DNA of 64,000 bases from Pegea sp. RAD2-039 (taxonomy: Eukaryota; Chordata; Thaliacea; Salpida; Salpidae): positions 992,001-1,056,000 of the forward strand of contig JAQGEQ010000011.1 in NCBI GenBank assembly GCA_034620365.1. Reading direction: 5' to 3'. Numbering within the stretch: position 1 is the first letter of the stretch; each line of letters starts with the position of its first letter. The position numbers were made by a program, and so were the translations under genes. The notes under the pieces were generated by a model that worked only from the letters and a program-made list of their open reading frames with translations, did not search any database and was not told where the DNA came from. Shown here piece after piece: positions 1,691 through 62,559 of the stretch.

Positions 1691-1900
1691 TGATGACGTC
1701 ACTATATCTGGGTTACTCGATGACACACTGGTTTAACAAGGTTACTTGGAAAATGCATGATACTCGTGCCTTGAGTGATGTCACTTGATTTCCACCACTT
1801 GGCGACGTGAAGCTTGTTTCCGAAATTATCCACTCCTGAAGTCATCAGCAGTGTATAAATATAGAAGCGGTGGATAAAACAGATGATAAGAAGTTGGAGA
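1691..1900 (+). promoter_or_regulatory. Putative promoter of the sushi-vWA gene
   Basis: A perfect TGACGTCA palindrome (CRE/ATF type) lies at 1694-1701 and a TATA-like TATAAATATA at 1854-1863. Both are upstream of the secreted-protein start at 2291. If transcription starts about 25-30 nt after the TATA-like word, the 5' leader would be about 400 nt, possibly with an untranslated intron. The words are seen directly; their use as a promoter is inferred from position only. Confidence 0.4.
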
Positions 1901-2290
1901 AAAGTTTGTGTTGACTCGCGCGTTTGATGAATTAATCATTTGTAGGTAGTTAATGAGAAGCTTTGATATAAAGCGGTAATTTTTGATCAACATAAGATTT
2001 GATCATTCTGGAAGCTTTGATGTTTGATGTTGTTTGTAATCAATATTTTTCAGCTACAAATCAAATTCTTAATTATATTTTTAAAGGTTTATTTTATTGA
2101 ATCAAAAATCTTTGTAAATTACTTTAGTTGATGATCAGTAGCGAGAAAGTAAATTTTCAAAAACTTCAGACAGTTTTGTATCTCAGAAAATTTCGCAACT
2201 AATATAGTATCTACTTCTTTTCAACAGAATATTTTATTGAATCTTTTAGCTCCCAGTTAAATTCAAGTAAAAGATAAATCGATTCAAATA

Positions 2291-4444
2291 ATGAAGTTAC
2301 TTTCAATCTCCCATATTTCCTGTCTACTAATGCTGGTTGTCAGTATTCATGGTCAGTATTCCTTTTCCCATCATAATCAGCAAGTAGTAATTTTTCCTTT
2401 TCAGCTCTGCGTTGCAGGGAGTGTGATAATGCAATCAGTGATGATGACTGCCAGGAAAGAGGCCGAATGGTTGAGTGCCAACCAAACCAAGTAAGATTGA
2501 TCAAGCTGTAAAGAGCTTAAAAGAATCTTTAAAGCTCGTTTAAAGCTGAAATATTTTCTTTGTTTTCTTTTAACTAATATTTAAATAATTCTAATATGTA
2601 AACTAATCTCATGCTTTTAAGAACTCTTGTTTCTCGGAGTACCGTTTAACTGGAACCACCAAATTAATTACTCGAAGATGCAAACAATCTCATGCTTGTC
2701 AAAACAATCACAACCAGGTTTTAACCAGCTGTTCTCATTTATCTTCTTAACATCAATTTTCCTAAAACAGAACCTTCAACCAGCCTGGATGCCGACTCAG
2801 TGCAACGATATTCAAGGCTCTGTTTGCCGCTGCTGTTGTTTCACTGATGAATGTAATGATGTTGAGTTGACATCATGCGGAGGCCAGAACACTCCACGTA
2901 AGTAAGCTGTCACAATTCCTCTCATAGGTTTCATTTTTTTACTTTAGCAAAGTGTGAAAATCCTTCTCTGTTGAATGGAGCAGTTTCGTGCAATGATGAA
3001 GGAACTTGTGATTACATCTGTGATCCAGGTGAAAGTTTTCTTTTGTTTGTTTTTTACTCTGAACAAATTTGTTGTAGGATACACTCTGGTTGGAACCTCT
3101 CAAACTAACTGTAAAAGGATTGATGATACTGATGTTTATGACCAAGCAAAGCCAACATGCGAACGTAAATAATTTGAATAAAATTTTTCTAAAATTTTTC
3201 TTTATTTTTATTATTGTATAGCACTGTGTGATAGTTTACTTTCGCCTGAGAATGGAGAAAAGGTCTGCGAATACTTAAATGTTGAAAACGAAGTAGGAAC
3301 TATCTGCTTTTTCAAATGCTCAGAAGGTGAAAATAAATAAGTTTGAAATGTAGTTGCTTATCAAACCTTTTAAGGTTACTACTTATCCGATGAATATGTT
3401 AGTGAATGCGAATTTAAGCAAGGTATTGGAGCAGTTTACAGCGAGCCACCACCCACTTGTGAAAGTTTGTATAACTTTTCAGCTGTTTACAAGTTGTTCA
3501 ACAGTTTTCTTATAGAAAAAACTTTAAAAAAAACTTGTCCTGAGCAAACTCCACTCCGAAGAGTAAAATCTCACTGCTCGGAGGAAGATAAAGTTGGTTC
3601 AATTTGTAAATTTACCTGTGAGCATGAGATTTACAAATTTGAGCCTGGTTCAATTGAACTGAACGAGTGTCTTCAAAATGGTTCATGGTCTTCAGCGCCT
3701 CCTTGCTGTCGATGTAAGAATCTTCTCTATCATCTACAAAACCTAGTAACTTTTATGCAGTGCCCTGTCCTCCTCACACTGTTATGGATCTAGTTATCTT
3801 GTTGGACTCATCATCATCAGTAAAGTTACCATCTTGGAAGAAAAGTATTCAGTTTGTTACTGAATTGATCAGGTTCTTTCTTGCTTTATTGTCTTTTCTT
3901 TTATTGTATTTTTATCTACAGTCAGCTCACAGTGAGCTACAATATGACAAAAGTCTTTGTGCTTCGCTATAACAAAGCCGTGGATACAAAAAATCAGATT
4001 CTCTTCGAGAATTACAACTCTCCGGAAGAAATTCAGCGTCAATTAGATAGCATTCCTTATGATGGGCGAGGAACTCGAACTGGGAAAGCTCTTAGATATA
4101 TTCGGAATAAAACATTAAAACTTCCCGCTAACCGCAACAACGTTACCGACGTTGTGTTGCTCCTGACTGATGGTCGCGCCTCAGATGATGTATCAGTAAT
4201 TTCGAAAAGTTTGAGAAATGATGGAGTTGAGGTGAGTCATCCTGCTGACCTGTTAATGTCATAAACTGACGTCATAATGTAGATGTACGCGATGGGAATT
4301 GGAAATATCGACCGTGATGAGCTGCTAGAGATCGCTGGCAGTCCAAGTCATATCTGGGATGGAATCACTTACAAAGATTTTATGGAGAATAATGTTTCAG
4401 CGGAAACAATCATGCGTGATATATGCGACAACTCCTGTAAATAA
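2291..4444 (+). CDS. Secreted protein: three-finger (Ly6/uPAR-like) + sushi/CCP + von Willebrand A
   Basis: Twelve exons: 2291-2351, 2405-2490, 2622-2717, 2771-2897, 2948-3028, 3078-3164, 3222-3326, 3375-3464, 3516-3713, 3761-3872, 3922-4231, 4283-4444. All phases agree and give 504 residues. A signal peptide covers about residues 1-19. A cysteine-rich module follows, ending in CCCFTDECN, the CCxxDxCN signature of three-finger/Ly6-uPAR domains. Next come three sushi (CCP)-like modules, each with paired cysteines and a Gly-Tyr motif. A C-terminal vWA domain has the MIDAS motif DSSSS, a GTRTGKAL threonine segment and VVLLLTDG. No membrane anchor is seen, so it is probably extracellular, with metal-dependent ligand binding and a recognition or adhesion role (inference). 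Intron 11 contains TGACGTCA at 4267-4274. A poly(A) signal AATAAA lies at 4531-4536. The exact biological partner is unknown. Confidence 0.85.
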
Positions 4445-9350: not shown

Positions 9351-12300
9351 TCACCTGACCACCACAGAGGTAGTTGGTGTGGACCACGCGCAAGTATTAA
9401 TCAACATATAGCAACATCTGATAGCAATTCGCGGAGTAAAACTTCTTCTTCTGGTCTTCAACGCGCGCTTCACTATAAACAACGCGAACGCCACAAGTAC
9501 ACTTATAATTGCAGCTACCCTAAACACGTGATGATGTTGGTGGTCAACTAGTGGCATATCAGGTAAATGAACCACTTCAGTGTCATCAATGGATAGTAGG
9601 CGTTGCCTAGTAACCGTTTTATTGACAGGATGAGCTGTGGACCAACGATGCGTTTGGCAGACCGGGACTTCTCGAATGGTCAGTTCATCGCCCAATTGTC
9701 GACGAAGAACTTTCGAGTATTTATCAAGCAAATTATCGGGCATCCGACCAGGGGAAGTGGACCACAATAGCTGATCCGAAGTGTGGGGCAGGTGAAGGTT
9801 GTTGATAGCGCGTGGATCTTCAGCTAACTCCTTCACTAATTCTTTCTACAAACCATCAACAATTTCATCGATGTTACCACCAACCAGCAACTGAACCAAC
9901 CTTCATAGTGTACTTTAACAACAATCCCATCAACCAGTAAGAAGGAGATTTGTTGTGCGCATCATCAAAGCAATTCGAGTCACCATACACGACCAATCGG
10001 CCCCCGCCACTTGTTGGTAACTACCAGTAGGCATAGTTTTAAACACAGACCACTTTCAATGTCACAACAAACAAGTGTACCTGGTACAAGCCAAGAACAG
10101 GAGTTTGGGACACTTCTACTTTCTGCTTCGCCATCATGTAGTGGGCTTGGTCCTTGAGGGTGACCCGCACCACAAGTGACTTCTAAACGTCAAGTAATAG
10201 TTTGCAACAACATCAAACAATCATGTTTATGTAACCTTTGGAAAGCGTGCGATCGAAGCTCCAGAAGCATAATAAAGTGATTTAGAAGCAAGTTGAAAGT
10301 GACCAGACAGGACACGGTCACTAAACTGAACGCCAAACTGGGTCAGGAGATCGTTGAGGGCAGGGACATTACTGCCCCCCGTTTGAGGTGTCCACCATCT
10401 TCGAGTATTTTCGTCATAGAAACGAACTTTGGACATGACAGTCGTATTGTACCAGTCCGCTACAACTACATCAAATGGTCACAATTGGTTAAGAGGGCCG
10501 ATTGAAACTGACCAATCACAGACAAGTTATTCTCTTCCATATCACGTCGTAATTTGCTGCCCTCTAGCGGGAAGAATTCCTCCTCAGAATCAACGATCAA
10601 TAAAGTTCCATAGTCAGAAGCATCGAAGCAAGTATAGGGTTGCCCCAGAACCTAACAAATGGTCCAATTTCAATTCACGCACCGACCAATCAAATGCTGA
10701 CCTCAATAAAGTAACCAATCTGACGTAGATGACGATACAGACCCTGAAAGTTGGTGTGAATATGGTCCCCGTTCCAGTCAAGTAGGTCTTGTGTTATATC
10801 GAGGTTGTCTCGCGGAAAGTAACCTGTAAGGGATGGTGAGATGAGAATGAAGGGGGTTAAGTGTTACCAGGAGGATAGCGGAGGTTGTGGAACTGATCCC
10901 AAAGGATTCTTTGCTCTCGTGGGGGAGTTGGTATGATTGGGATCTTTAGCGGTAGCGTCAGTGTTGTCTTAGTTACATTTGTCAAGTTGTCAGCTGGTGA
11001 TTGAATGATTAGCTGCACGTGACCTTCAGCCACTCCTCGCCACGCCTCTGCTCGAGGTGCAGCTGAGATGTGGACAGCAAGGTATCCACTCCACGGCCAC
11101 AACAAGCGCGAGTAAGTAAATGAAATCTAGGAAAGAAAGTTGAAAAGAAGGTGTTGGTAATTGAGGAATCACCTGAAGCATGTCCCCGTTTTGATGCGTG
11201 TGTGGATGCCAAGTGGGCTGGTCCACAATTGTACCAGTCACCCCTGCTCCATTTATAATCGTGATATTGGCAATAATTGGAATAGCGCGGTGGTAGAGAG
11301 GTTGGGACGAATAGGGCCACATATAAATTGTCTCGGTGAAATCCAAATAACTGGGCACCAAACTCGCTTGTGGTTGATACGAGTTGATGACCTGCAAATG
11401 GACGGTCAGTAAGTGGTCATGACTACTGACCACTGACCGAGTAAGCTTTGATTAGATCCACTTTGCCTTGACCTTGCTCAAACATATTAGCAACTGGTAA
11501 TCGAGTTGATGATTCCATCAATGATTGCTTGATCATGGCAGGATTGATGACGTCACGACGTCTCGATGTAGCCACCGAGCTTAGTAACAACGCTATCACA
11601 CCACTGACTATTGGGGCACCAACACTTGTCCCCGATAACACGCGACATCCGCCTTCAATTGCCGACCCCATTACGTCAGTTACGTGGGTGACCAGATCTG
11701 GTTTGACACGTCCATATCCACCTGGTAACTCCCATGTCGTCATTCCACGAGATGAGAAATGCGCAATGACGTCAGAGCCATCAATGCCACCGACTCCAAT
11801 CACATCCATCTGGTCCGCAGGGTTATTAAGTGTCCCTAAAAAGTAGTTTTATATAAAAGAAGCCTCAAAGCTACGCGATTCACCGTAAAGAGGTCCGTCA
11901 TTGCCAATAGCTGACACAAGGATCACATTATTGGCGGATAGTTGCCAAACTTTGGCCACAAATGGCTCATCCATAAAGTCCGGTCCCCCAATACTTAAGT
12001 TAAGGACATCAATTTTTCGCTGAATAGCGTAATTGAAAGCGTCCAAGAACCAAGAAGTATAGGACACCTGGACCACAAATATAAGCTGTTACCTAATGGC
12101 TATCTGCTGATGATCAAGTAACTTGTTTGTTGGTGAAAACCCGGCAAATGTAGAGATCAGATTTGGGTGCAAGTCCCGGGCAATCAGGGCTTGAACCACC
12201 TATTACTCCTGCCACAAAGGTCCCGTGGCCTAGTCCATCATCTGCAATCTTCTCTCCTGTCCAATCTGTTCTTTCAATCACATTGCTAAAATGAGGATGC

Positions 12301-12990
12301 GAGGCAGATAGGCCAGTATCAAAAACAGCCACTTTCACCCCTTGTCCTTGATAACCAGCCGCCCAAAGACGGGGAGCAGATAATAGCTGAAATAGAAGGA
12401 TGATAAAAAAAAAGATTTGAAAAGAGAAGACATACTTGAGAAATAGAAGTCCCTTTTTGAATTGATCTTAAAAGTTTTTTGAGATTAATAGATGAAGAAG
12501 GTTTTCTGGAATGGTTCACCTTTAAACATCTTATAATTCTCTTCTGTAAAGTCAAGCTACGGATATTGTAACGAGAAAGACCTCCTTTTATCTAAAAGAT
12601 CAGAATCAATAACTTAAAGCATCTTTCAATAATGAGTTAGATCACCTGAAATGGTAATGACTGATTAATAACAACCACATCAAAGTCACTATTGCCTCCT
12701 TCTAATAGTGGATGATGAGGCATCACTTTCAAGTGAGATTTACTTCTACCTAGCAATTGAAATGCCTCATCAATCAATTTCATTCTGGTCATTTGTGAGT
12801 AGTAGTTATAAAACATCACAACATATTCTCCTTCTACTAATTGTGATGAGTAAGTAACATCTTGTTCTGAAGCTTTGGTACTCTTATTCGTGTGATTACT
12901 TTGGTTGGACTTTGTTGAAAAACAATTAATAAAGAATATCATAAAGGATAAAATATTTAAGAGAAATATACATTCAATATTCTTTCTCAT
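9351..12990 (-). CDS. MBTPS1: Membrane-bound transcription factor site-1 protease (S1P/SKI-1)
   Basis: Thirteen exons on the minus strand: 12990-12646, 12591-12436, 12386-12123, 12067-11884, 11835-11438, 11391-11173, 11126-10868, 10823-10702, 10651-10513, 10465-10236, 10182-10081, 10020-9901, 9845-9351. They give about 1010 residues (human 1052). A signal anchor at the N-terminus is followed by a prodomain with basic-hydrophobic autoprocessing-like sites (KKLLRSI). The subtilase domain has Asp190 (VFDTG), His221 (GHGT), oxyanion Asn311 (SAIGND) and Ser387 (GTSVGAP). The conserved post-catalytic region carries [22 protein letters not shown] and [12 protein letters not shown] single transmembrane helix at about 956-972 precedes an Arg-rich cytosolic tail. 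S1P cleaves SREBP and ATF6 in the Golgi ahead of site-2 protease. Two TGACGTCA words lie inside exon 5. The last 20 or so residues are less certain, since the tail is not conserved. Confidence 0.95.
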
Positions 12991-20266: not shown

Positions 20267-23200
20267 ATGCTTTTATTAAAAAATCAAATTATACCCTTGG
20301 TTCACAGACTACATTGTAGAAAATTATTGATTAAAAACTTTATTGTGAAAATAAGTCAGTTTCATTCCTTAAGTATGAACGGATCAAAAAAAGAATTCAG
20401 TCGATTACCTACTGATGTTATTCCAGTTAATTATAATTTAAGATTAACACCATGTTTAAGTAGCTTCATCTTTGATGGTTATCAAGATATCCAAGTCAAG
20501 GTCAGTAATATTTAAAACAATTGGAATGAATTTGGATTCCCTGTAAGATTTTATTATCTTGTTTTTTTAATTAATGTTTTCATTATATGTATGATAACAA
20601 AAGCAGCTCTATATAAAAAAAAAGAATTTTTAGGTCAATGAAGCAACCACAAAAATAGTGATGAATTGTGTGGACATTACCATTGATTCTGTTAGCTATG
20701 TTTCAAAGGATGGTCAGAATCTAAAACCTGCTGCGGTTGATTTTAGTCCTGATCATGAAACTGTCACGTTAACTTTTCCTGAAAAGTTAAATCAGGGTTT
20801 GTTTTTACATTTGTATTTATTTGCCTATCTCACTAAAATCTTAATTTTCAGGAACTGGAACTTTAAGTATGGACTTCAAGGGTGAATTAAATGATAAAAT
20901 GAAAGGGTTTTATAGAAGCAAGTAAGTAGTTTCAGTTAATTTATATAATAGATTAGATGAAATGCATCTTTGTGTAATTTAGATATCTTAAAGATGGAGA
21001 AACAAAATATACTGCTGTAACTCAATTCGAATCAACTGATGCTAGGCGTTGCTTTCCCTGTTGGGATGAACCGGCGTTGAAAGCATCATTTGATGCCACT
21101 TTAGTTGTTCCCAAGGATTTAGTTGCATTATCTAATATGGTAATGCGTGTACATCAAAGTTTAAATATTGAAAAGACAAGTTTGAATTTGAAATTAATTC
21201 AAATATTTAGATATTATGTTTGAACTTGAAATTTAGTTTTTAAACTTTTCAATTTGTTTTGATTTTAGAATGTGATAAGCGAAAACGAAACTGTTGGAGA
21301 TTCGGCAAAAAAAGTCGTCAAGTACGCAACCACACCTATCATGTCCACATATTTACTTGCCTTCGTCGTAGGTCAGTTCCATTCAATTTTCGACTAAACA
21401 ACTTTACATAAATTCTTCGTGCTACAAAGAACACTTTTTAAGTTTAATAAATTTCCATTTTAACCAATAAACTAGTTATAAATACTATCATTTGCTAGGG
21501 GAATACGATTTTGTTGAAAAAATAACTTCTGATGGCATAAAAGTACGAGTGTATACACCTCTTGGTAAAGCTGCTCAAGTGAGTACTTGAAGATATTTGA
21601 TTGATGTTGGCCAGCAGTAGGCTGATATATGTTGTGGTTTTAAGGGTGCTTTTGCGCTGGATGTTGCAGTACAAGCCTTAGGTTACTATCAGGACTACTT
21701 CGGAATTGCATACCCATTGAATAAGATGGATTTGATAGCAATTGCTGACTTTACCGCTGGTGCTATGGAAAATTGGGGGCTGGTGACATACAGGTGATAC
21801 AAAACTCATTCACTTCGTATCACCAACTTATATTTATGTAGAGAGACTGCTTTGCTAATTGATGAAGATTCATCTTCCGCTTCAACTCGCCAGTGGGTGG
21901 CGCTAGTAGTCTGTCATGAGCTAGCCCATCAGTGGTTTGGTAATTTGGTCACTATGGAATGGTGGACACATCTGTGGTTGAATGAAGGTTTTGCTTCTTT
22001 CATGGAATATCTGGCAACTGACCACTGCCATCCTTCCTATAAAATCTGGACCCAATTTATAACCCACGACCTTGTCAGGTAACTTTCACGTGATACTTTC
22101 AAACTATCGCTAACTTTACGGTTGTTAATAAAGAGCGATGGATCTGGATGCGCTGGACAACAGTCATGCTATCGAGATACCTGTTGGACATCCTGATGAA
22201 ATTGATGAAATATTTGATGCTATTTCATATAGTAAAGGAGCTTCTGTTATTAGAATGTTACATGATTGGATTGGTGCTGAGGTTAGCGTGGCTCATCGTC
22301 AACTATTACATTTCTTCAATCTCTATTTTGTTTAGAGTTTCAAAAAAGGACTTCACAAATACCTCACAAAGTTTTCATACAAAAATGCTTTCACTGAAGA
22401 TTTATGGGAAGCACTCGGAGAAGCGAGTGGCAAGCCTGTTGGCACGGTGACCACTTGTGTATCTGATCATGTGACTTGTGTGTCTGATCATGTGACTTGT
22501 GTATCTGATCATGTGACTTGTGTATCTGATCATGTGACTTGTGTATCTGATCATGTGACTTGTGTATCTGATCATGTGACTTGTGTATCTGATCATGTGA
22601 CTTGTGTATCTGATCATGTGACTTGTGTATCTGATCATGTGACTTGTGTATCTGATCATGTGACTTGTGTGTCTGATCATGTGACTTGTGTGTCTGATCA
22701 TGTGACTTGTGTATCTGATCATGTGACTTGTGTATCTGATCATGTGACTTGTGTGTCTGATCATGTGACTTGTGTATCTGATCATGTGACTTGTGTGTCT
22801 GATCATGTGACTTGTGTATCTGATCATGTGACTTGTGTGTCTGATCATGTGACTTGTGTGTCTGATCATGTGACTTGTGTGTCTGATTATTTATTCTTTT
22901 TCAGGTAATGTCAACTTGGACAAGTAAGATGGGATATCCAGTAGTTGATGTGAGTATGGAATCATCTACTGATCATTCGGTTACTCTTTCACTATCACAA
23001 AGCAAATACAGCGCCAACCCCTCTTCTTCTCAAGGTTTGACTCCCTTTTCATCTCATCAACCTCATTTGTTTCATTTTAGGTAAAGCAGATGACTCGTTA
23101 TGGTCGATTCCTCTCAACTTCAGCACCTCTAGCGACCCATCTAAATCTGTCAAGTCGTGTTTATTCTGTGATAAGACTGGTCAAGTGACTATCCAAGGAG

Positions 23201-24642
23201 TTTCGGAACAAGGGTCATCTTCATCAACTCTTCAATCTTTCATCTTTCTCATATGTGTATTTTAGATGGGTGAAAATGAATCCATCATCAATGGGATTCT
23301 ATAGAGTTCGTTACACTTCTCAACTACTTGATAAGTTGATGCCAGCTGTCAGATCTCAACAACTTCCTTCTACTGATCGCCTCAGTCTACAGAACGATCT
23401 CTTTGCGCTGGTCAGTCTTCTTAATATCTTCTCATTGATCTGAAACCAGCTTTTTGACATCAGGCGTCTTCGGGAGCCACTTCTACCGTCGACTTCCTTC
23501 GTGTGCTTCAATCATTTGAAGAAGAAGTTGATTTCACCGTGTGGAATGACATCAATGGCAAACTCGGTCAGCTGAACGTGCTGTTGTGGTGTGATGACGT
23601 CACACACGCGCGATTCAAACGCTTCACGTCGCGACTCTTCTGCAAACTGGCTAATCGACTTGGATGGGATCGTCGCGAAGGAGATGGTTAGTGACGTCAC
23701 TACCGACTTCGATTTCACTTCAACTATTCATCAGATCATCTCACTAACATGTTGAGGAGCCTTGTGATTGGACGATTGGGTAGTTGTGGTAACCAGCAAG
23801 TTTTGAATGAATCCAAAAAGCGATTTAAAGCTCACGTGAGTCCTCCTCCCCTATATCTGCTCATCTCATCAACTTCTACGCAGTTCAACAAGTGTCGACT
23901 TCTCGACGCCGATCTTCGCGCGCCAGTCTACAACAACGTGTTATCACTAAATGACAGTCAAGTATTTGATGACATGATTAATGTGAGCATCCCCCTGCCC
24001 CCTAGTTACTATCACCATGGCAACCGACTTATTTGTAGCTTCACGATCGAGCTGATTTGCATGAAGAAAAGGTCCGAATTGAGAAGAGCCTTGGTAGCGT
24101 CACTACTCCTTCTCTAATTGAGCGTGTTCTCGACTTCTCGATGTCGGTACGTCATCTACTCCCTCATCACAACCCTTCAGTGACGTCACACTGAAACAGG
24201 ATAAAGTGCGCAATAACGATCGCGTCTTTGTGATTGGATCGGTAGCGATGAGTAGCGCGGCTGGTCGTGATGCAGCTTGGAAGTTTGTCAAGGCTCATTG
24301 GGATGAACTTCACCAGATGTATCGGGGAATGTTTCTCATGTCTCGTCTCGTCAAGGTCTGTATGTGTGTGTGACGTCATCAAATAATCATTGTCGTCATC
24401 GACAGCTTGTGACGGAGAACTTTGCGACAAATGAGATGGCCGATGAAGTAGAGGTAAGTTGTTGTTGGTAACCTAGCAACCATGTGACTTCGTTTTTGCA
24501 GAAATTCTTCAAAGATAATGCAGCTGAAGCAGCTGAGAGAACTGTTCAGCAATCAGTTGAGCAGATTCGACAGAAAGCGGCATGGTGGAAACGCGATGGG
24601 GACGCCATCAAGCAGTGGTTAGAAAAAGTTGATCAAGAGTAA
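20267..24642 (+). CDS. NPEPPS: Puromycin-sensitive aminopeptidase (M1 zinc metallopeptidase)
   Basis: Twenty exons: 20267-20500, 20634-20796, 20852-20921, 20983-21139, 21269-21371, 21499-21578, 21645-21793, 21842-22078, 22134-22281, 22336-22446, 22905-23034, 23081-23213, 23266-23410, 23464-23686, 23735-23835, 23884-23982, 24039-24146, 24200-24355, 24406-24453, 24502-24642. All are in phase and give 911 residues (human about 919). The M1 motifs are GAMEN (308-312), zinc ligands HELAH (344-348) and Glu367 in WLNEGF. The C-terminal ERAP1-like helical domain is complete. It trims N-terminal residues from peptides, mainly in the cytosol. A second start at Met37 (MNGSKKEF) would give a form without the hydrophobic N-terminal extension, as in vertebrates. 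Intron 10 is a minisatellite. Introns 14, 17 and 18 carry TGACGTCA. A poly(A) signal lies at 24666-24671. Confidence 0.96.
22453..22888 (+). repeat. 21-bp minisatellite filling NPEPPS intron 10
   Basis: There are 20 complete copies and one partial copy of a 21-bp unit containing TGATCATGTGACTT. Copies differ almost only at one A/G position; I read the series as A G A A A A A A A A G G A A G A G A G G G. The array begins 6 nt inside the donor (exon 10 ends 22446) and stops just before the T-rich acceptor at 22904. Because 21 is a multiple of three it is open on both strands, which gives false repetitive open frames. The unit holds a perfect TGATCA palindrome. Length polymorphism between individuals is likely (inference). 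Confidence 0.97.
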
Positions 24643-43959: not shown

Positions 43960-45468
43960 ATGGAAAGCAACTCGGAACCGGCAATCGGTGGCAGTCGTCT
44001 ACTTCGACACGCCACTAAACGAGGTGCTCGTCACCTTGACAACGAGACTTCTCGTCGACAACGAAAAGATGCGAATGCAATTTACGGAGTTCCTTTAGTA
44101 GCCGTCCTTATTTCTGGGATCGCTTTGACGGGAAGTATCTTTCTTTACTGCAACTCTTTACAACTTCAAAGTGAATTAAATTCTCTGCGTGAAATTGTGA
44201 CTGGTGAGAAGAAAGAAGACTCTCAACAACGCAATCTTACAAATCCTGGTCTTCTGGATCGCTTTACTCAGGTCACTTCATCTCTCAATCGAGCTATCCT
44301 TCAATTAAAATCGTGGGCGAACGTGTCTTCCTGTCTAATGGGCAGTGATTTGATAATCGGGTAAGTTTGTTGATCCTCATCTTCTCGCCTGAGTTGGATT
44401 GTGTTAAAGTAAATAATTGATAGATGGTGAATATTGGAATTCTGTTTTGTACTTAATAATTTACTAGTACTCATTTTGTTAGCATCTTATAGAGATTCAA
44501 TTCCATTTCAGTCATTTATTATTTTTTAATTTATTTTTTCTTTTAAGGTCAATCAGATAACATTTAAAATTGTCGAGCTTCAAGTCAGCTTGCTTCAGTC
44601 TTTCAATTTTTCGCTCCAATTTGTCTAAAATTGATTTTTTGAAACAAGTTTTGGTTTAATTCATTAATGTTGTTTTTAAATGAATTATTAAATTTCAGAT
44701 TTTTAATCAAGTTAAAATTTTTATTTTGTTTTACTTATTAACTTAATAAGTGATTTCATTTTTAAATATTTTAATGAAAAGTTTTTCATGGCCAGCTGTT
44801 TAAACTTTTCATTTTAATTTATTCGTCATACTCACAGTTTTAAAAATACTTTTTGTAAAATTTGTGTAATTTGGCTACAAGTTACATTTTACGAGCAAGT
44901 AACAAATAAAAAGGAAAATTATTTTACGAAAACATCATTTGCAAATTTGTAACAAATTTGCAACGAATAATCAGCAGATACTGCTATCGTTACCTTGACT
45001 ACCAGCTGGACTGGTGGAAAGCTGAAGCGTTTTGTCAGAAAAGAGGGGGTCACGTGGCGTACATTGAAGACACAAACACATGGAATCAAACCATTAACTT
45101 CATGAATTCTAGAGATCTAAGCACTATTTGGGTTGGACTCTACAAAGTACTACGAGTTGATACAAACCGCGTTTATTCGTGTTACTTATCGCGATTGTTG
45201 CTTAGAAACGAGCTAGTGATAAATGGTGGTTTCCAAATGGTCGGGAAGCTAATTTCACTCGTTGGGATTCTTCGAATCTTTTTGATGACGGTGATAATTG
45301 TGCTTCAATTCGATACAGAAGCAAGCGGTGACGTCACATTATTAGGTGAGTAACTAAGCGGAGGTTGATGTAGGTCTCGCTTCTAACAGATTCGGGATGT
45401 TTGATGGAAGATGCAAAGAAAGACAAAGTTTTTTCTGCAAGTTCTTTGATAAGTTTGGTGCCCTATGA
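43960..45468 (+). CDS. Type II transmembrane C-type lectin-like protein
   Basis: Four exons: 43960-44360, 44978-45146, 45206-45327, 45390-45468, giving 256 residues. A basic cytosolic N-terminus (about 1-42) is followed by one transmembrane helix (about 43-64), a stalk with N-glycosylation sequons (NLT, NVS) and a C-type lectin-like domain. The domain shows YCYRYLDYQLDWWKAEAFC, GGHVAYIED, the WxGL-type core WVGLYK, then FTRWDSSN, NCASIR and a final FFCKF. The calcium/sugar-binding EPN or QPD triplet is not seen; the position reads FPN. Canonical mannose or galactose binding is therefore doubtful. It probably acts as a cell-surface recognition protein. Intron 3 starts with GTGACGTCAC, so the donor GT overlaps a TGACGTCA word (45329-45336). 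Another copy is in the 3' region at 45535. Confidence 0.85.
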
Positions 45469-47133
45469 CCTGTCCACAAGATTTGATCACTACTAAGTAT
45501 TTGGAGCAAAACATTAAAGAAGATGATAAACTGATGACGTCATCTCTTCGCAAAGTCGATTTGAATACAAAAAGTAAAAAAAATTGTCCGCTGACATCTT
45601 TGTATTTCAGTAAAGTTAATCGCAAGAATAAGGAACAAATAAGACCTTGATATGTCTTGTTTTTCAGGATTAAAGATTTATTAGAAACTATTTTAGAAAC
45701 TTGAAAGGCTAAATCAAATATCTCTGAATAGATTAAACAGATCAAAGAGACGTTCTTCAGATTAAGGTCTCAGATGACAAGAGTTAAAGACAAATAATCG
45801 AATATCAACATCATCTTAGCAGCTTAATCTTCATTAAAGTCAATCGTCCGGCAAATATTTTTGAATCAAATTACTTTAAGTTGTTTTGTAAAGTCTTATC
45901 ATTTGCTAGTATTTGAGAATGGAATAAAAACTAAAATCATATTAAAAAATAATGAAAAGTAAACAGAGACAGAGATCTCTTTCAAGTCTTGCTACTTGTT
46001 AAACAAATTTATTTATAAATTCATTTCGTATTTTAAAGTGAAACTTAAAATATTAGCTTTTAAAGCTAAGTGATAAAAACAAAAATGAAAAGTAAACAAT
46101 TCTTATCTAGTTTTAAACAATAAAAGAGTGAAGAAACTAAACAGATTAGGCTAATGGACTTTTGCTGATTATATGCTGAGATGAGCGCACATATCTGTCC
46201 AAAAAACCACTTCCTGTTTTTAACTTAAAATTCTAACTTTGTCTATAAATTAAATATTTATGAAATAGTAAACTTCAAATTGGTTATTTACTGAAATAAT
46301 AAGTTTCAATTAGAATTTATTTCCATCATAAGTAACTTTAATATATCTTTCAAGCAGTTTGCTACAAGCTACTGTTGAAAACATATCTATCCAGTTGATT
46401 CTCAAGATATTTGTAAATTGTAAAATATATTTTCAAACATTCGTGTAATATTAAATGATGAATTATCATACAAATAATTTATTCAAATTACAAAAAGCTC
46501 AAGTTGTAATTTTATTTATGAAAAGTAAACTTTATTTGATTGACTTCAAAATTTCTTCAATTTTTCTTTATTTTTTCATGAAATTTAATTTTTGTGAAGA
46601 CTCGAACAAGGTAAATGGCCAGATTAGTCGTTTACATGTTCACAACCTGCCTAATAGCTCAACACAAATTGCTTTCAATTAGCTCTTGATGTTTAATTGT
46701 CATTAATTGCTATTTGAAATCTAATTGATTTCATTGATAAAGAAACCTGAATAGAAATATGAAAACAAACAAATCGGTTTTATCGATTTTATTTATTAAA
46801 GACAAAATTAATTTAAAAGAAAAACAAAACAAAGAGAAAAGGAAGTTGGAAATATTTGTGAAGCTTTTAGTGATTTGCATTCAACTAATGTGAAAAAATT
46901 GAAAATTGTAATTAACTTAATAAATTATTTCTTGCTTTCATCGAAAACCGCCACAAAAATTTCCAATCTACTAACCGCTGTAAATAATCAGTTTGTTGTC
47001 GGAAAACATCAAACACGACAAAATACAAATGACATTTCTGTCTTTCATGTGATGTAGTGTGATTCATCTCTCATCAGAACTACAGTTAAAAGACAACGAA
47101 GAAAAATGCCAGCAAACATTCACACCTATCCAA
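45469..47133. other. Convergent intergenic spacer
   Basis: About 1.7 kb between the lectin (+) and SPECC1L (-) 3' ends. It holds one TGACGTCA at 45535-45542 and A/T-rich sequence. No gene is supported. Confidence 0.5.
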
Positions 47134-50100
47134 TCACGTTTCAAAGTATTTGTAAAGTTGAGTCACATATTTCATGACTCCTTGCCAATCAGGACGCTCA
47201 TTCAACGTCATCGACTCCACACTCAAAGTTGGTTCGATTCCAGAACTTTCAGCAGCAGCAAGTGCTAGCCGGAAGTGTTTCGCCTGAAAGTTCAAAGATA
47301 AGAAATAGAAATGAAATATTAGAAATAACCTGAAGTAGTTTTCGTTGCCTTTCATCATTGCTTGTAGTGTAAGTGTTTGCAAGATTCAAGTAAGGTATAT
47401 GAGCTGGTAGGTATGAATGTATCAAAGCACACAGAGCCAAACCATCGGACCAACTGGTACTAAAGTTTGTAATATCGATACCTGGATAGTCCTGCAAAAA
47501 CCACTAACGGTTAGCAACCAGCAGCAGTTAGCAACCAGCAGCATACTTTGGTTTTTTTCTGACACCATTGTAGCAACGCATTCCGTTTCGAGCCTCCATA
47601 TTTACGAGCTAGTGTGACTAGAGGGTCTGCTCCCCCTACAATACTTCCTCGCGTTTTACCGCGTTGCTTATCACTCGGTTCTGTCGATGGCATCGTTGGC
47701 TGTGTTCGATCTAACAAATTACAACCCGTGACCAGCTAGTATCGACCAGTTAGCCACCAACCAACCTGACTGGTTTGTTCTACTGACATCTAGGGACGAA
47801 GGTTTTCGCGCTTCCGCCGCTGAATTGCGTCGCAGAAACGATGACAACGGACCCAGATCTGTATCTAAGATGGAAGATCCTGATGACATGCTTCTGATCT
47901 TTCGAACAGACTCACTTGTACGAGCGCCATCTGGTGTTGTAGTTTTACTACTACTAGACGAGCTGCTGGTTGCTGCAGGTGATTTCGCGCTGGTATTCGA
48001 CGCGCTTGTCAGTGACGTCAACGAGTGATGACGTTGCATTGGCGATATAGTGGCGATAGAAGGTGGCGACTTGATCGGAGAAATTTTGAAATTGGCGGGA
48101 GATTGATCTTCGGATGCCGGCGGATTTGGTGAATTTTCTAGGAGTGGTGTGGAAGCGGGAGATATAGTAGCGCTGTTAACGCGCGTCATCGTCGTCGAGC
48201 TTTGGCTATCAAATGATTTGATGAGACTCTGAACTCCGGGAGAAGCATCCAAATTTCTCCGAATCTTTTGAACTTCCTGAACTTCACTTCCTCTTCTTTC
48301 CAACGGGCTATGACTCGATGCATGTGACGCCATCCGCTTTCGACGTAATTGTTCATTCTCGACGCGAAGCTTAGTGACGTCATCTTCGAGCGTCTGCTTC
48401 TCTTCTCGTAACTTTTCAACTTCTTGTTGAGTCTCGGCCTTCATGTCGTTCGCGATACTAACAGCCATTTGCATATCACTCTGAAATTGTCTCCATTCAT
48501 GTGATTGGTTCCTCTGCTCACGTTTCAACTGCTGAATCTCTTTCACGAAGCGCACGCGTTCTTCCTACGTCATCAAATACGTCATCGCAAGTCATCACAA
48601 ACACGTGACTACCTTCAATGAAGACATTTGATTCTGCAACTGCTGGATGGTGTGACGCTCGTGCTTCTGGACCGCGATTTGTTGCTCCACTGAATCCTCC
48701 ATCACAAAGATCGTCTCATTTGCTTCTTCTAATTTGATATTCTTCATTCGAACTTCTTCATTTAATCGATCAATCAACTCCGACAACTCCGAAGAGTCCT
48801 TCTTCGCCTGCTCAACTACGTCATCAATACGTCAAGCGTTCATGACGTCATCACCTTCGAGATGGTAGCTTCGAGATACTCTTCAAGCTCAGAAACGCGC
48901 GCGTCTAGCTTGTCGTTCTCAGCTTGAAGTTCTCGGCTTTCTTCCTCCATTTCCTGATAAATGACGTCATCAACGCGATTTAGCTTTGTGTAAGTGACGT
49001 CACTACCTGCTTCTCACCACGTAAACCATCGACGATGGCGACGAAGTTATCTTCACTTCCAGACACCTCGTTCAGCTGCAGCAAGTCGCGATTTCGCTGT
49101 CTAAGAACGCGAAGATCTTCACGGAGTCGCTGCTGTTCCGAAGTAGTTGAATCTCGAGTTGCCTGCGGGTCAGTGGTTGTCGGTCAGTGGTTAGTAGATA
49201 GTAGTTGGCGGTAAAGGATTGGTGGACAAGAAGTTGATGGACAGGTGGTTAGCCTTACCTTTAACTTGCTGTCCACAACCTTTTTATCAGCCCGCGCTTG
49301 CTTCAATTCTCGTTCAAGAACTCGAACGTTTTCTCTTAAATCTTCAGCTTCTTCAAATGCTTCTTTTCGCGTCTCTTCCGCTCTTCGTAAAGCGCTATTC
49401 AGCGATCCTTGACAATCGAGTATATGACGTCGTTCATCCAACAAACACACGTATTGTTGTTTCAGGTCATTGTGATTCGAATCTTCGTTCAAATGATCCG
49501 ATACCAGCGTCTATAAACATCACGTGACCATCAATCGCGACTTCATTGATGAGAAAGAATCAAACTTTTTGGTCGTTTGCCAAATTGGCTTCAACATTTC
49601 ACTATTTACAAATTAAGCAAGAGGAATCTATTATGAGCAAAGTAGATGCGATGACGTCATCAGCACGCGACTCACTCTCAAATGAGTCGATTCAGTTTGT
49701 TGTTCAGCCAATTTGCGTTCAGATTCTTCAAATTGTTCCACTAAAACTTTTAACTCTTTTCGTAACCGCTCGTTATCAATCGCTAACTCAGGAACCGACT
49801 TCTGTAGATCATTCAACTCCTATGACGTCATCACAGAGTCTTTAGAATCATGACGTCATCATACTTTTATATGACGTCACCTGAACAGTAGCTTCGAGTT
49901 CCTCATTTGTGCTGATATGACTTTCCTGCATTTGATGAATGCGTTCTGTAAGACAAGCCACCGTTTCACACGAACTTCTATCCCCACATGCTCCATCTGT
50001 TGATCGCGCGACACCTGTAACATGAAGTGATGACGTCAGTGATGTATGACGTCACAACTGACAGTAGTACCTGATAGAGTGAGATATGTGCTAGATGGTA

Positions 50101-53100
50101 CAACATCATCAAGAAGATTTTCAGTTGATGTAGATCTTGAGATGGATGTTGAAGACCTCATCAAACTACCAGCAGCTGAATCGATGTCTTCCGTAGAGGA
50201 GCTCAGCACTTCATCACAGCCTCTTTCATCTGTTAATCGTATTTAGATGTTGGTTTGCTAGTACTTTGCTCGGTAGATGGTGTAATCGAGCGTGCTATCT
50301 TCAACCATAAAGAGATGTGAACCCAAGTTTACCAAGCACAATCAACCACCAGTCGATTTCGTCGTCTAGTTTCAGCCACTAGTCTACTAACAAAGCAACC
50401 AGCTAATCAATAAACCAACCAGCTAATCAATAAACCAACCAGCTAATAAATAAACCAACCAGCTAAACAATAAACCAACCAGCTAATCAATAAACCAACC
50501 AGTTAATGAATAAACCAACCAGCTAATCAATAGACCAACCAGCTAATCAATAAACCAACCAGCTAATCAATAAACCAACCAGCTAATCAATAAACCAACT
50601 AGCTAATCAATAAACCAACCAGCTTATCAATAAACCAACCAGCTAATCAATAAACCAACCAGCTAATCAATAAACCAACCAGCTAATCAATAAACCAACC
50701 AGCTAATCAATAAAGCAACCAGCTAATCAATAAACCAACCAGTTAATGAATAAACCAACCAGTTAATGAATAAACCAACCAGCTAATCAATAAACCAACC
50801 AGCTAATCAATAAACCAACCAGCTAATCAATAAACCAACCAGCTTATCAATAAACCAACCAGCTAATAAATAAACCAACCAGCTAATCAATAAAGCAACC
50901 AGCTAAACAATAAACCAACCAGCTAATCAATAAACAAACCAGCTAATCAATAAACCAACCAGCTAATCAATAAACCAACCAGCTAATCAATAAACCAACC
51001 AGCTAATCAATAAACCAACCAGCTAATCAATAAACCAACCAGCTAATCAATAAACAAACCAGCTAATCAATAAACCAACCAGCTAATCAATAAACCAACC
51101 AGCTAATCAATAAACCAACCAGCTAATCAATAAACCATTCCATGCAGCTCATTCATTTCGTGAAAGTTTAGGAATCGATTTCTAATATTTGATAAATACT
51201 TTAGAATCATTCACTTAATCTCAACTACAAGAAGAAAAGGATATTAAAAGGTCAACATCCTACCAGTGATTGTGGAAAGGTACTTCAAGTTCAAAGAAGT
51301 CATGAAATTTGTTAAATAACTTCAGAAAGTTCAAATATTTACAAATTTCACGATTATCACCACTTCAGTTTACTACAACTGCTGATAAAACCAACCTTTC
51401 TGTAAACGTTTATCTTGTTTGTTTGTTGATTGCTGTAAAAGTATCATCTCATCTATACGATTACGAAGCTTCAAATTTTCATCCTGCAAAAAAACTGAGC
51501 AATTAACAACAAAACTTCAAACAATTTCGTAATTTGAATAAAACGTAAAATATTCAATAAAATCAGATGAAGAGTAATGAAGCGCTGAACTACTAGCAAA
51601 TCATACAAACAGATTTCTTCTTTTCCACTAATGATGATCAAATCAAGTTCAAGTGCTTCTGTCACTAGAGGCGCTTCAATCTCACTGAAGTTGACGCTTA
51701 AAGAGTTTTCAAGAAAGTTTTGTGTTGACAAAACAAAGTAGCAAGTAGTTGTCACGTGACGCGATGTGACGTTTGAATGTTGAGTTGATTTGGAAATTTC
51801 AATCGATTTTCGCCAATAAATTATTCAACGACAAATCAGAACAACAAAAATAGTTACCATGGCGACCTAAAAGAGTCTTAAATGAAGTCAACAAATCAGA
51901 AAAATGACAACTAGGTGGTGCAAGAGAGCGACAAAAAGAAGCAAGGGACCTGTAGACGATCAACTTTGCTTCTAGCATCTTCATCTTCTGGATTGAGTTT
52001 GACTAATGATAAGAATGATGGTTCCCCACCTCCTACCTCATCACCATGGTTACCATCTTCAACTCGCTTGTTTTGAGCTAACAACATCATCTGATCTAAT
52101 TGTTGCTTCAAAGTTCTGCAGTAGAGATGAAGATCAGATTTGGATTCAAGCAAGACTCGATCTTACTTGATCTGTGAATCTTTCGACTTTGATTGCGTTT
52201 CCAACTCTTTAATTTGCGTTTCCATAGCAACTCGCTCAGCATCCAGCTTCGCGCGCGTTGTTGCTGTTGACAACTTGTTAGCTGGAACACGTGACATTTC
52301 ACAGCTTCAGCTTACTTTTGCGCGATTGTGACGTCACACTCTTGCTTCCAGCTCCCGATGACGTCTTTGAAGATGTCCCTGTCCCACTCGCTGCCACAGT
52401 GGTCCACTTCTTGTCGCGCGCTTTGACGTCACCAGCATTTCGCACTGATGACGTCGTTGCTTCCTTTGACGTCATCATTTTTCGACTAGAAATTGTGGAG
52501 CCGCTAGAGGCGCCTAAGAGAAAGGCAAGTATGACGTCATGATCGATTAAGTTGTTTATCTACAAAATGACGTCATCATAATTGCAAATCAAGGTAGAGG
52601 AGTTTTTAGAGATCAAGGTGCTAATGGACTCTAGAGATGAAAGTTCTAACTCCGGAGCGGTCACATTCTATTATTATCTTACTATATAAGAAAGAAAATA
52701 TAAAAGGAGATTTAAATTTCACGCTTGATTGATTAGCAGATGCAATAAAAACTGATGCGCATTCAAGTGGAACGTGTTTAACTTTACCCACTCAAATTAG
52801 TGAGGTTATTTTGTACACTAATAAATCAATTACGATAAAAATGGATTTTTAACCTTAAAATGTCAAAACTTTTTCAAACTTTTTTTCTAAGAGTCCTAAA
52901 AAAGTCAATTTGCAAAAATTTGCAGAAAGAAAATTGGTGGTGATAACAGCTGACCCTTATTGGAGTAGGAAGTAGTTGAAGCAACGAAACAAGATATTTG
53001 AAAAATTTATCTGAGAAACAAACCATTTGTAATTTTAATTCTTGTATTTGACTTATCCACTTTACTTTTCGTTAAATCTTCTTGACTCTGAGTTTTACCT

Positions 53101-59229: not shown

Positions 59230-59863
59230 TTAATTTATCACATAGTAGATACTAATTTGGATCTTTAGTTTTATTAGTAAAACTTTTTCCACTCAATAAA
59301 GTAAAAACAAATTATTCAAAATGTTTAAAACTCATAAATACTAAATGCTTCCATTCCGTTAAATAATACTTTTCCATAAATAATTTAGCGGAAAATAAGA
59401 TACTTGGTAAAAAACTCCAATTTGTTTAACAATAAATTTTTGTTTACAAAAAAACTAGTACTAATGTAGAACTGACTGAATATGTAAACAGTTCAATTAT
59501 TTTGTGATTTTAAAATTTAATCATAACCTTTAAATTTAATTTTGTAAAAACTAGTTGTATCAATTTTTATAACTAAATTCTGTAATATTTAATAAAACTT
59601 GCAGTTTAGTCAAGTTTAAGGTGTAACTTTTAACCACATTTTGCCTATACTAGTAATAAAGGTCAAATGATTGCTATTTTTAATTTAACTTTAAAAAATC
59701 ATCGTTTGAAGTTAAATGTTTGAATTAATTTTTACATCCTATTATAGTTGGTAATCTATTTTTGAATCTAAAATAAATGTAATTAAAGTAAATACAATAT
59801 TTTATCAAATAATTATTTTTTTCAAATTTATTTTGTTTTTGCAAGGATTATTAATGAATAAAG
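59230..59863. other. Spacer upstream of ABHD16A
   Basis: About 630 bp of A/T-rich DNA between the SINE-like element and the ABHD16A start. No gene is seen; it should hold the ABHD16A promoter. Confidence 0.45.
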
Positions 59864-62559
59864 ATGTGTGAAGGCATCAACTATGGTAGAAAACTAATTC
59901 TAGCTTTGATTGGACCTCAATTATTTCGTATTCATAACATATCTAACAACAATCAAGTAAGTTAATATTTTTATAAAATAACTTTTTTCTCTTTTAGTTA
60001 ATATATTATGTTTTTTTTACTAATTTTATTATATTTCTAAATTACATATTGTTTTATGATAATGACTGATTTTTTTACTAAAATTTATAGTTATCTTATT
60101 AAAAAACATAAACTTATAGAATTAATCTTATTTTTTAAACATTACTTTCTACTTTTTAAAGTTTTTTTTATATGTTATCTAAATGATGAAATTTATGAAG
60201 CTAAAATTTGAAGAAGCTGCTAAATTTTTTGTATATCTTACAATAAACAATCATAATGTTGTACTTATCTTGCAATACATTTATAACTTCTATTTAGCCT
60301 CTAAAACTAATCTACTAATTTTTTAATCACTTATTTAGCTTTGTAAATATGTTTTTAGAATAATTTTTATAAATTTATACTTGTAACTGAGTCTAAACTA
60401 GTTTTTTTTTAGGGTTTCAACTATATACCAAATACTTTTGAAATATTTTCTCAAAAATGTTTTACAATAGTAAAAATTGTAAAATCTTGCTTAATTTATT
60501 CATCGCCATTATGGATTTCTTACTCATCATTTCATGGTTTGTTTTGCATTCATTAATTCTATTTTTAAGTAAATCTGATAATGCAAGTTTGTAGGTGGTC
60601 CAAGTTTTGAACGAGTTGTTTGGTTTTTATTGACTATTTCAATGATGATTATAGTTGGATACACTGGGAGAGGTGACCAAACTTCAGAACTTCTGAATAA
60701 TTTATTTTTATCAAAAATGGCCTTTTTATTTTAAGTTTTATCTTGACTAATTGATCAAGATGAAATATTTTCTTGTAGTAATTGGTAGACTGAACAACCA
60801 AGAATACTTATCTTTTCTGGAAGTTTATGATAAATTTACTTCAAATCCAAGTGACTTACAGCTAGTGGTTAGTTATTTTAATATATAACTTTCATATCTA
60901 CTTTAAAACTTGACTGATTTGTCTTTGTTTCCAGGAACATATCAAAGAATTTGATTTTGAATTCAAATTTTTCCCCACTGAGTTTTCTATGAACAATCTA
61001 GAAACAATTGTTCCAAGACTTGCATGTGGAAGCTTACTTGTAAACATTCAAGCTCGTCCATCACACTTCCCTCTACAACTATTAGCTTATCTGGTCTCTC
61101 AGACTTTTGGAATTTCTATTACATACCCAGGCTCGACTTCAATGATTAAATTACTCCTTGGTAATAGTTAGATAGTTTTGATACCAACATAATTTACTAA
61201 TTTGTTAAGTGCAGGTGAAGCTCTTGTAAAAGGACGAGCAGAACTGATTGAGAAAGTTAGTTAGTGGCTCAACCTAATTGTAAGCTTCTTTGAAATCTTT
61301 TTGTTTAGAAATCAGGAATAAGGTCAAAGTTGGTTGCAAGTGATGGAAACATCATTGATACTATGTTCATTGATCAAAGGTTTTCTATCATCCTCATCAC
61401 CACATCTTTTATTGTCTGTAATCTCTTAGAAAACGATCTGAAGATATCAAATGTGCAAACTCAAACACATTGGTAGTATGTTGCGAGGGAAACGCTGGTT
61501 TCTATGAGGTCGGTTGCATGGCAACACCTTTAGAAGCTGGATATTCTGTTTTGGGTTGGAACCATCCTGGCTTCGGTGGTAGTTCTGTAAGTCAACATAA
61601 AGTGTTGAGGTTAGTTTGTGACGTCATCACTTCTAGGGGAAACCTTTTCCTGATGCTGAAGTGAATGCAATTGATGTAGTGATGCAATTTGCCATCCATC
61701 ATCTTCACTTCCTTCCTGAACAGATCCTCATCTTTGCCTGGTCTATTGGTAATCATTTTCTTCAACCAATCAACGTTTCTTCATCTTGGTTACTATCCAG
61801 GGGGATTTGCTGCTACTAAAGCTGCTGCTATGTACCCAGAAGTCCAAGGTCTGATTCTCGATGCCACTTTTCATGATATCCTACCTCTTGGACTCACCAC
61901 AATGCCTCCTTTTCTGGGTCGGTTTTTTCCTACCCCTACTAGTTGATCTGTAATCTTCTTTTTCAGCACCTTTCACCACTTTTACCATCCGCAATTATCT
62001 TAACTTGCACAACAGCGCCAACTTGCGGCACTATTCAGGCCCTACGCGCTTCATCCGCAGAACACAAGATGAAGTGATGAACGTTGGTGACGTAAGCAGT
62101 AACCGTGGTAACATGCTAGTTGAAGATTTCTTGTGGATGCGGTTTTCTAAGCTCTTCAGCGGGTGCAAGACGTCTCTAGGGCATCGGGGCGTTGGTAACG
62201 ACTTTAAGGCGCTCTGGCAATGGTTGAGCGCTTCTACGTCAGAAGCACGAGGTCCGTGGTAATCTTCCATCTGATCTTTCCTAATTTTCATTTAAAGATT
62301 TATTATGGACTTCTTGGAGTGTGGATATCGACAAATGTCATGAACATCTACAAAGCTGTGAGGCAGATATGACTCGAGTAGGGATCAATCTTGATCTTAA
62401 AGATCGAATCCGACTTATTCTTTTTCTGGTGCTTTAATCTTCTTCTTCATCATTTTTTTATCGTTTTATTTACAGACAGACAAGGTCCTCACTCATTATG
62501 ATGCCACACACTGTGTCCCCTTGCCCACCTGCTTGTTTTTGCGACCCTGGAAGCTATAA
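59864..62559 (+). CDS. ABHD16A: Phosphatidylserine lipase ABHD16A (BAT5)-like
   Basis: Thirteen exons: 59864-59956, 60413-60536, 60595-60672, 60779-60867, 60935-61160, 61215-61255, 61309-61379, 61430-61586, 61637-61748, 61801-61917, 61967-62251, 62298-62428, 62476-62559, all in phase, 535 residues (human 558). The start was chosen because IGPQLFRI aligns with the human N-terminal LGPRLYKI. Two hydrophobic segments in exons 2-3 fit the family's N-terminal membrane anchors. The alpha/beta-hydrolase core has LVVCCEGNAGFYEVGC, AGYSVLGWNHPGF, nucleophile Ser329 (AWSIGG), Asp404 (RRTQDE) and His520 (DATHC). In mammals ABHD16A hydrolyses phosphatidylserine to lyso-PS in the ER. Intron 8 carries TGACGTCA (61619) and exons 8 and 11 X-box-like words. 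A poly(A) signal lies at 62716-62721. Confidence 0.95.

Follow-up and report, generated by a model that had tools for sequence, protein, structure and literature searches.

A CRE-like palindrome in large genome-wide excess is densest in the gene bodies of the salp Pegea sp.

The cAMP response element (CRE), the site of bZIP proteins of the ATF, CREB and Jun type, has as its core the 8-letter palindrome TGACGTCA, with a purine before it, a pyrimidine after it, symmetric flanks and a central CpG. The same core, whose flanks agree with these rules, is the subject of this report: it occurs 31 times in a 64,000-nucleotide stretch of DNA from Pegea sp. RAD2-039 (assembly GCA_034620365.1, contig JAQGEQ010000011.1, forward-strand positions 992,001 to 1,056,000), which we call the window. 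The Pegea genome also encodes bZIP domains. Here, however, the word is present at about 263 copies per Mb across the assembly, in exons and short introns all along genes and not gathered at promoters, and its binding is putative. We give an even chance to the reading that TGACGTCA and its extended form TGATGACGTCATCA are a putative ATF/CREB/Jun-type bZIP recognition site that is maintained in gene bodies and may serve a role at the level of DNA.

Three other described systems invite comparison. The highly iterated palindrome HIP1 (GCGATCGC) is, like the Pegea word, a sharply exact 8-bp palindrome centred on a CG or a GATC-type core, and recurs across the genome in coding as well as non-coding sequence (PMC4390886); the author of that study ties it to methyltransferases and suggests a ratchet driven by repair. 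The Pegea word is likewise iterated far above expectation in coding and non-coding DNA, but HIPs belong to cyanobacterial genomes and the genes here are animal genes with introns, so that the word is at most HIP-like and not a HIP member; it further differs in its gene-body bias and in one-base deviations that are not end-biased, and a matching methyltransferase is conjecture. The meiotic hotspot word M26 (ATGACGT) of fission yeast is also a CRE-like word inside a coding sequence, and acts on DNA through the ATF/CREB-type dimer Atf1-Pcr1 (PMC9775316). The Pegea sites show no GC peak sharper than that around other CpGs. A hotspot word should in general tend towards loss and not towards amplification. 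The loop-anchor motifs of placozoans and ctenophores are again genome-wide motifs, in non-bilaterian animals, and one contains a CpG and is methylation-sensitive, but they are GC-rich or transposon terminal-inverted-repeat motifs at promoters and enhancers, with no match to TGACGTCA seen in the passages considered (PMC12221973). In a demosponge a G-box-type E-box is enriched around transcription starts, and the terms CREB, ATF, TGACG and ACGTCA are absent from the main text of that paper (PMC4773876). Among the titles and abstract starts of the matches listed in open-access PMC, we found no report of a comparable gene-body palindrome (TGACGTCA, ATGACGTCAT) in an animal.

The 31 starts given for the window in an earlier note are all exact copies, and our scan found no further one; 100 dinucleotide shuffles of the window hold 0.39 copies on average (standard deviation 0.65, maximum 3). 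The assembly (105,744,746 bases, 387 contigs) holds 27,792 copies against 868 expected by scaling from local dinucleotides, a 32-fold excess. The local expectation comes from a first-order model fitted per 1 kb block, so that GC-rich and CpG-rich genes receive their own expectation, and was applied to a 294 kb sample: the window, contiguous stretches of 150 kb and 50 kb from a single contig (C1), 10 kb adjoining the window, and two further contigs with 10 kb apiece. One contig thus supplies 200 of the 294 kb; the sample, with 80 sites against 2.41 expected, nevertheless agrees in density with the whole genome. We relied on this expectation because reversed-word controls convert CG to GC and hence are not CpG-matched; the reversed word ACTGCAGT has 969 copies, close to its own scaled expectation of 1,128. 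When all 8-mers counted at least 12 times (both strands summed) were ranked in 264 kb with tandem repeats masked, TGACGTCA was the most over-represented. The excess is therefore real and genome-wide, as the earlier note had supposed in ascribing the scatter to a genome-level process.

That note had also named, as outcomes that would count against it, a genome-wide count matching a shuffled expectation and an enrichment wholly explained by the CpG or GC content of the genes. The latter idea, that GC-rich and CpG-rich genes simply hold more CpG words, draws on the fact that site density over gene segments tracks exon GC (rho 0.64) and the CpG observed/expected ratio (o/e; rho 0.56), as it does intron GC (0.66). 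Its probability is nevertheless close to nil, and we reject chance and composition alike: the shuffles never exceed three copies in the window, the 32-fold excess is measured over local dinucleotides, the same-composition palindrome TCACGTGA reaches 5.3-fold (4,614 copies against 868 expected genome-wide), and one-base neighbours reach 1.1-1.5-fold. This second palindrome with an ACGT core, which we take to be a USF/MITF-type E-box, occurs in short introns too, for example at window 22086-22093.

To place the sites we used a self-written ab initio gene finder based on codons and splice sites, without RNA support, at strict settings. It recovered animal genes, among them a site-1 protease and an M1 aminopeptidase, both with solved homologues, and its models further include CH, GYF, FH2/FHOD, nuclear-receptor, alpha/beta-hydrolase and sushi/VWA domains. 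Modelled introns have a median of 74.5 nt, and a tenth to a quarter of them measure at most 48-53 nt. Counting introns of up to 200 nt as short, the sample has 27 sites in 17.8 kb of short introns (0.15 expected), 39 in 79.9 kb of exons (1.35), 9 in the 101.6 kb made up of long introns or gaps (0.44) and 5 in 94.8 kb outside gene models (0.37). The word is thus enriched in every compartment and densest in genes, short introns first. The earlier note had seen the A/T-rich intergenic stretches as nearly devoid of it; this holds for absolute numbers in the last two compartments, although both stand above expectation.

The 71 sites inside gene segments fall into five bins along the segment length as 12, 12, 23, 11 and 13 (gene-level counts leave out segments with less than 300 bp of coding sequence). 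They are spread along the segments, unlike the promoter location in human, and this five-bin count shows no gathering at the 5' ends of gene models. Five of the nine sites outside segments lie within 80 bp of one, and four at 0.6-2 kb. Neither helical nor 3-bp phasing was found among the 57 pairs of sites within 250 bp of each other (resultants 0.028 and 0.061; about 0.13 expected if unphased).

The high density in short introns, some of which hold two or three copies, might suggest a signal in RNA: UGACGUCA in the pre-mRNA could aid splicing, or copies could pair as hairpins across short introns. We consider this improbable, and the splicing role raised in the earlier note has no clear support. 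In its favour, 8 of the 27 short-intron sites lie within 7 nt of the donor against 4.2 expected, a slight and borderline excess (p about 0.05), and the flanked form TGATGACGT occurs in introns 16 times sense and 7 antisense. The same form, however, is even in exons (10 sense, 10 antisense), and there is no excess at acceptors among these 27 sites (6 against 4.8 expected). Other flanked forms, read relative to transcription, are TGACGTCAT (exons 16 sense, 19 antisense; short introns 19 and 14), TGACGTCAC (exons 15 and 11; short introns 6 and 11), and, in exons, TGACGTCAG (2 and 7) and TGACGTCAA (6 and 2). Flanks are therefore symmetric overall, without consistent strand bias at these small numbers, and the site is roughly strand-symmetric. 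Furthermore, 39 of the 80 sample sites are exonic and 14 lie outside exons and short introns; the exact word is in only 20 of 243 short introns; and in exons the variant that would keep pairing through G-U, TGATGTCA, is not favoured over TGACATCA, which would not (4 and 9, sense). The near symmetry together with the donor and acceptor counts favours a DNA-level role, with a role in RNA less probable.

Within coding exons the word bends synonymous choice. In the sample exons the codon pair GAC-GTC occurs 26 times against 6.5 expected, while Asp-Val pairs number 119 against 101; ACG-TCA occurs 23 times against 5.5, while Thr-Ser pairs number 202 against 151. Since the codon-pair excess is far above that of the amino-acid pairs, a nucleotide preference drives the synonymous choice, and we reject a favoured peptide as the cause. 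The effect nevertheless reaches proteins: in those predicted from the sample, DDVI occurs 10 times (shuffle mean 0.31, maximum 2) and MTS 17 times (mean 3.0, maximum 10), a protein-level echo of the DNA palindrome. Exonic sites lie in reading frames 1 and 2 (18 and 21 sites) and never in frame 0, trivially so because frame 0 reads TGA.

The form of the site would suit a protein contact. Across 67 sites read in both orientations, position -1 is A (0.54) or G (0.31), position -2 prefers G then T, and position -3 T then C, with the complement downstream; this purine before and pyrimidine after the core, with symmetric flanks, is what the ATF/CREB site requires, and bears out the earlier identification as the CRE/ATF core. 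The extended palindrome TGATGACGTCATCA has 1,972 exact copies genome-wide and its reversed control none. Base preference stops 3 bp beyond the 8-mer on each side; the unit is thus 12-14 bp, the size of a dimeric protein contact and not of a transposon end, and the word is not a fragment of a repeat.

Remnants of mobile elements or introners carrying the palindrome at their ends would account for tens of thousands of copies, and for introns with a copy at each end. This explanation is nonetheless very improbable. No sequence is shared past 3 bp, there is no halo of decayed copies, and introns form no families: in those no longer than 300 nt, the best matches span 16 nt (exact) or 23-24 nt (about 91%). 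When exonic sites were compared with the best solved homologue, three of five lay in gap-free alignment; of the other two, one was closely preceded by a 3-residue gap and one adjoined a 1-residue gap. Base substitution is thus enough to explain how most of those compared arose. We therefore reject a dispersed repeat or introner family, and with it the earlier suggestion that the motif was amplified as a piece of such a repeat.

The exact word also stands sharply above its neighbours. All 24 single-base variants were counted genome-wide and grouped in four symmetric position classes: 1/8 (3,063 copies, 1.07-fold over local expectation), 2/7 (9,103, 1.52-fold), 3/6 (3,680, 1.16-fold) and 4/5 (21,279, 1.53-fold). 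Against the reversed controls, which are not CpG-matched, the same counts stand at 3,063/5,199, 9,103/8,117, 3,680/3,379 and 21,279/11,004. The largest surplus, about 7,400, is at the central CpG, and in the sample the central variants TGATGTCA, TGACATCA, TGAAGTCA and TGACTTCA are at 2.1, 1.6, 1.8 and 1.3-fold; because these are above expectation, some sites seem to decay at the central CpG. At the six non-CpG positions the surplus is 3,823, which under neutral decay would by arithmetic equal about 2.4% divergence per base. So small a surplus beside 27,792 exact copies indicates that sites are kept or quickly renewed.

Site-rich gene bodies are replete with CpG. By 500-bp windows, in which the sites' own CpGs are counted, there are 0.16-0.31 sites per 10 kb where CpG o/e is below 0.5 and 10.9-15.4 where it is 1.0-1.5; only one window exceeds 1.5, and it holds no site. 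Once the sites are masked, nine gene segments have a CpG o/e of at least 0.85, and these carry 22 sites in 14.3 kb of coding sequence and 20 in 4.0 kb of short introns (about one per 650 bp and one per 200 bp); the 41 other segments carry 16 sites in their 62.9 kb of coding sequence and 7 in their 13.4 kb of short introns. In the CpG-rich segments the high CpG o/e does not extend past the body: it is 1.04 there and an ordinary 0.68 in flanks 0.3-1.5 kb away. The background is CpG-poor (o/e 0.66-0.73) with a TpG/CpA surplus (1.12-1.23), which fits DNA methylation, and DNMT-like frames are present in the genome. Around sites, GC exceeds that around other CpGs of their class by 0.03-0.06 but falls off no faster: in exons it falls from 0.454 at sites to 0.401 at 200-400 bp (0.424 to 0.385 for other CpGs), and in short introns it goes from 0.439 to 0.428 (0.380 to 0.393). 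The simplest link would be a lack of germ-line methylation over site-rich gene bodies, a state that the sites may cause or follow.

Between gene segments of the sample, gene-body CpG o/e varies from 0.06 to 1.18, with flanks alike. The pattern suggests gene-by-gene differences in germline methylation.

How might such a site work? A dimeric bZIP protein of the ATF/CREB/Jun type would bind both half sites of TGATGACGTCATCA, roughly symmetrically as to strand, and sites would be placed and retained throughout many gene bodies, chiefly those not depleted of CpG. New sites would be born by base substitution and not within an inserted repeat; introns would take them most readily, and exons where the protein permits (Asp-Val, Met-Thr-Ser). 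Dense sites in exons and in introns of about 50 bp might then turn the gene body into a platform, either of open, probably unmethylated chromatin or of intragenic enhancer activity. We favour a bZIP protein on account of the flanking bases, the two-fold symmetry of the site, its E-box-like companion TCACGTGA and 12 domain-level bZIP_1 matches above the Pfam cut-off in the genome, all of which fit. The binding itself, selection on the site and an effect of binding are what we infer from sequence.

Several observations weigh against this proposal. First, human CRE words sit in proximal promoters and are not spread evenly along genes (PMC3464117). Second, the fission-yeast review reports that a TGACGTCA in the ade6 coding sequence, elsewhere in the gene that holds M26, is unbound by Atf1-Pcr1 (PMC9775316), so that an intragenic copy is not necessarily functional. 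Third, tens of thousands of weakly selected sites, many of them exonic, are a heavy demand for a regulatory role. In our own data, sites outside gene models are also above expectation, the CpG-rich class is of nine segments only, and TGACGTCAG and TGACGTCAA in exons and TGATGACGT in introns are lopsided, at small numbers. Finally, in the nine CpG-rich segments the word fills 11 of the 16 Asp-Val and 11 of the 17 [MLV]-Thr-Ser contexts able to hold it (0.58 and 0.43 expected), against 9 of 37 and 7 of 42 in the 41 others (0.86 and 0.40 expected). Such filling resembles a sequence drive more than placed sites, but is no proof of saturation because the motif itself made some of those contexts.

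A HIP-like drive would be a modification/repair or conversion process that turns near-misses into TGACGTCA, so that copies pile up without each being of use, and do so in gene bodies with a given state of methylation or repair. Besides the filling of most permitted contexts in CpG-rich segments, the very sharp peak of the exact word and an exon effect strong enough to leave peptides (DDVI 10, MTS 17) suit it, and seven intronless DNMT-like frames recall the methyltransferase link made for HIP1 (PMC4390886). Yet a drive should push near-misses below background, and none of the four mismatch classes is below expectation; the relative lack of sites in intergenic DNA needs an extra assumption. For HIP1 itself, one-base deviations are biased to the first and last base (PMC4390886), which does not fit the classes found here, where 1/8 is the least enriched (1.07), and makes a drive less likely. 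The idea is unlikely overall. As a further point against it, we know of no animal enzyme with specificity for TGACGTCA. A wider form, which we hold doubtful, would make the word an animal counterpart of the HIPs: a drive or self-marking system tied to methylation or repair, possibly involving the amplified DNMT-like genes, would write and keep TGATGACGTCATCA in gene bodies, shaping introns, codon choice and the DDVI and MTS peptides, and marking genes as unmethylated or expressed.

The DNMT-like open frames (832-873 aa) lie at C57:819728-826344, C249:1740707-1742050, C32:10146-38173 and C52:9209-10639, two of them head to head on C57. Translation of those at loci L009 and L012 shows that L009 keeps a PPCQGYSG motif and L012 has lost it; adjoining the L009 frame is a stretch that by eye resembles a reverse transcriptase fragment of a long interspersed nuclear element.

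One factor-like palindrome this dense in CpG-rich genes is unexpected for animal regulatory DNA. If it is bound by a bZIP protein, gene bodies would be a main regulatory substrate in this lineage; if it is driven, highly iterated palindromes can exist in animals too, and even in cyanobacteria their origin is unsettled. In both cases the proteome is imprinted by a DNA signal, which makes it a testable example of protein sequences shaped by non-coding constraint.

In the window, the earlier split of 18 intronic, 11 exonic and 2 flanking copies becomes 14 in short introns, 13 in exons, 2 in the gap just upstream of the first modelled exon of a coiled-coil gene and 2 outside the models; neither split is final, ours resting on ab initio models without RNA support. 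The three main carrier genes and the 31 exact copies of TGACGTCA (palindromic, given without strand) are as follows.

9354..12866, minus strand: site-1 protease (MBTPS1-like) gene, 2 exonic sites
20375..24638, plus strand: M1 aminopeptidase gene with 4 sites (puromycin-sensitive aminopeptidase is the best solved match); past 24638 the model is weak
47137..52513, minus strand: coiled-coil gene with CH domain, ab initio; 16 sites between 48013 and 52575, the densest carrier of the window
1694..1701: outside gene models, 636 bp upstream of the sushi/VWA gene model
4267..4274: 51-nt intron, sushi/VWA gene
11548..11555: exon, site-1 protease gene, codes ..RDVIN..
11767..11774: exon, site-1 protease gene, codes ..SDVIA..
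23595..23602: exon, M1 aminopeptidase gene, codes ..DDVT..
23692..23699: 48-nt intron, aminopeptidase gene
24181..24188: 53-nt intron, aminopeptidase gene
24371..24378: 50-nt intron, aminopeptidase gene
25777..25784: predicted exon, weak part of model
25877..25884: predicted exon, weak part of model
27497..27504: predicted exon, short weak gene segment
29668..29675: predicted exon, small-GTPase-like gene (named by reading the translation)
45329..45336: predicted exon, C-type-lectin-like gene (named by reading the translation)
45535..45542: 41 bp downstream of the C-type-lectin-like gene model
48013..48020: exon, coiled-coil/CH-domain gene
48375..48382: exon, coiled-coil gene, codes ..EDDVTKL..
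48843..48850: 47-nt intron, coiled-coil gene, with further TGACGT half words
48962..48969: 53-nt intron of two copies, coiled-coil gene
48995..49002: 53-nt intron shared with the 48962 copy
49652..49659: 165-nt intron, coiled-coil gene
49823..49830: 61-nt intron of three copies, coiled-coil gene
49851..49858: 61-nt intron shared with the 49823 copy
49872..49879: 61-nt intron shared with the 49823 copy; overlaps the modelled donor GT at its T (the gene runs on the minus strand)
50031..50038: 56-nt intron of two copies, coiled-coil gene
50047..50054: 56-nt intron shared with the 50031 copy
52329..52336: 5'-most modelled coiled-coil exon
52424..52431: 5'-most modelled coiled-coil exon
52467..52474: 5'-most modelled coiled-coil exon
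52532..52539: 18 bp upstream of the modelled coiled-coil coding part
52568..52575: 54 bp upstream of the modelled coiled-coil coding part
61619..61626: 50-nt intron, alpha/beta-hydrolase gene

The two modelled segments of the coiled-coil gene have exon GC of 0.455 and 0.441 and CpG o/e of 1.18 and 1.03. Across all short introns of the sample, 27 of 281 CpGs lie in TGACGTCA. A search with window:48550-50230 from the coiled-coil gene returned, besides itself, short matches of about 32-91 bases, and thus no allelic or paralogous copy; an Rfam scan of the window at gathering thresholds gave no match. A 1.2-kb modelled intron of the coiled-coil gene contains about 38 copies of the 20-bp tandem unit CCAACCAGCTAATCAATAAA (window 50380-51140). 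Another tandem repeat, at window 22391-22908, can be read without a stop in three frames, one on the plus and two on the minus strand (VTCVSDH and others); it sits between aminopeptidase exons, and the gene finder took part of it as exon.

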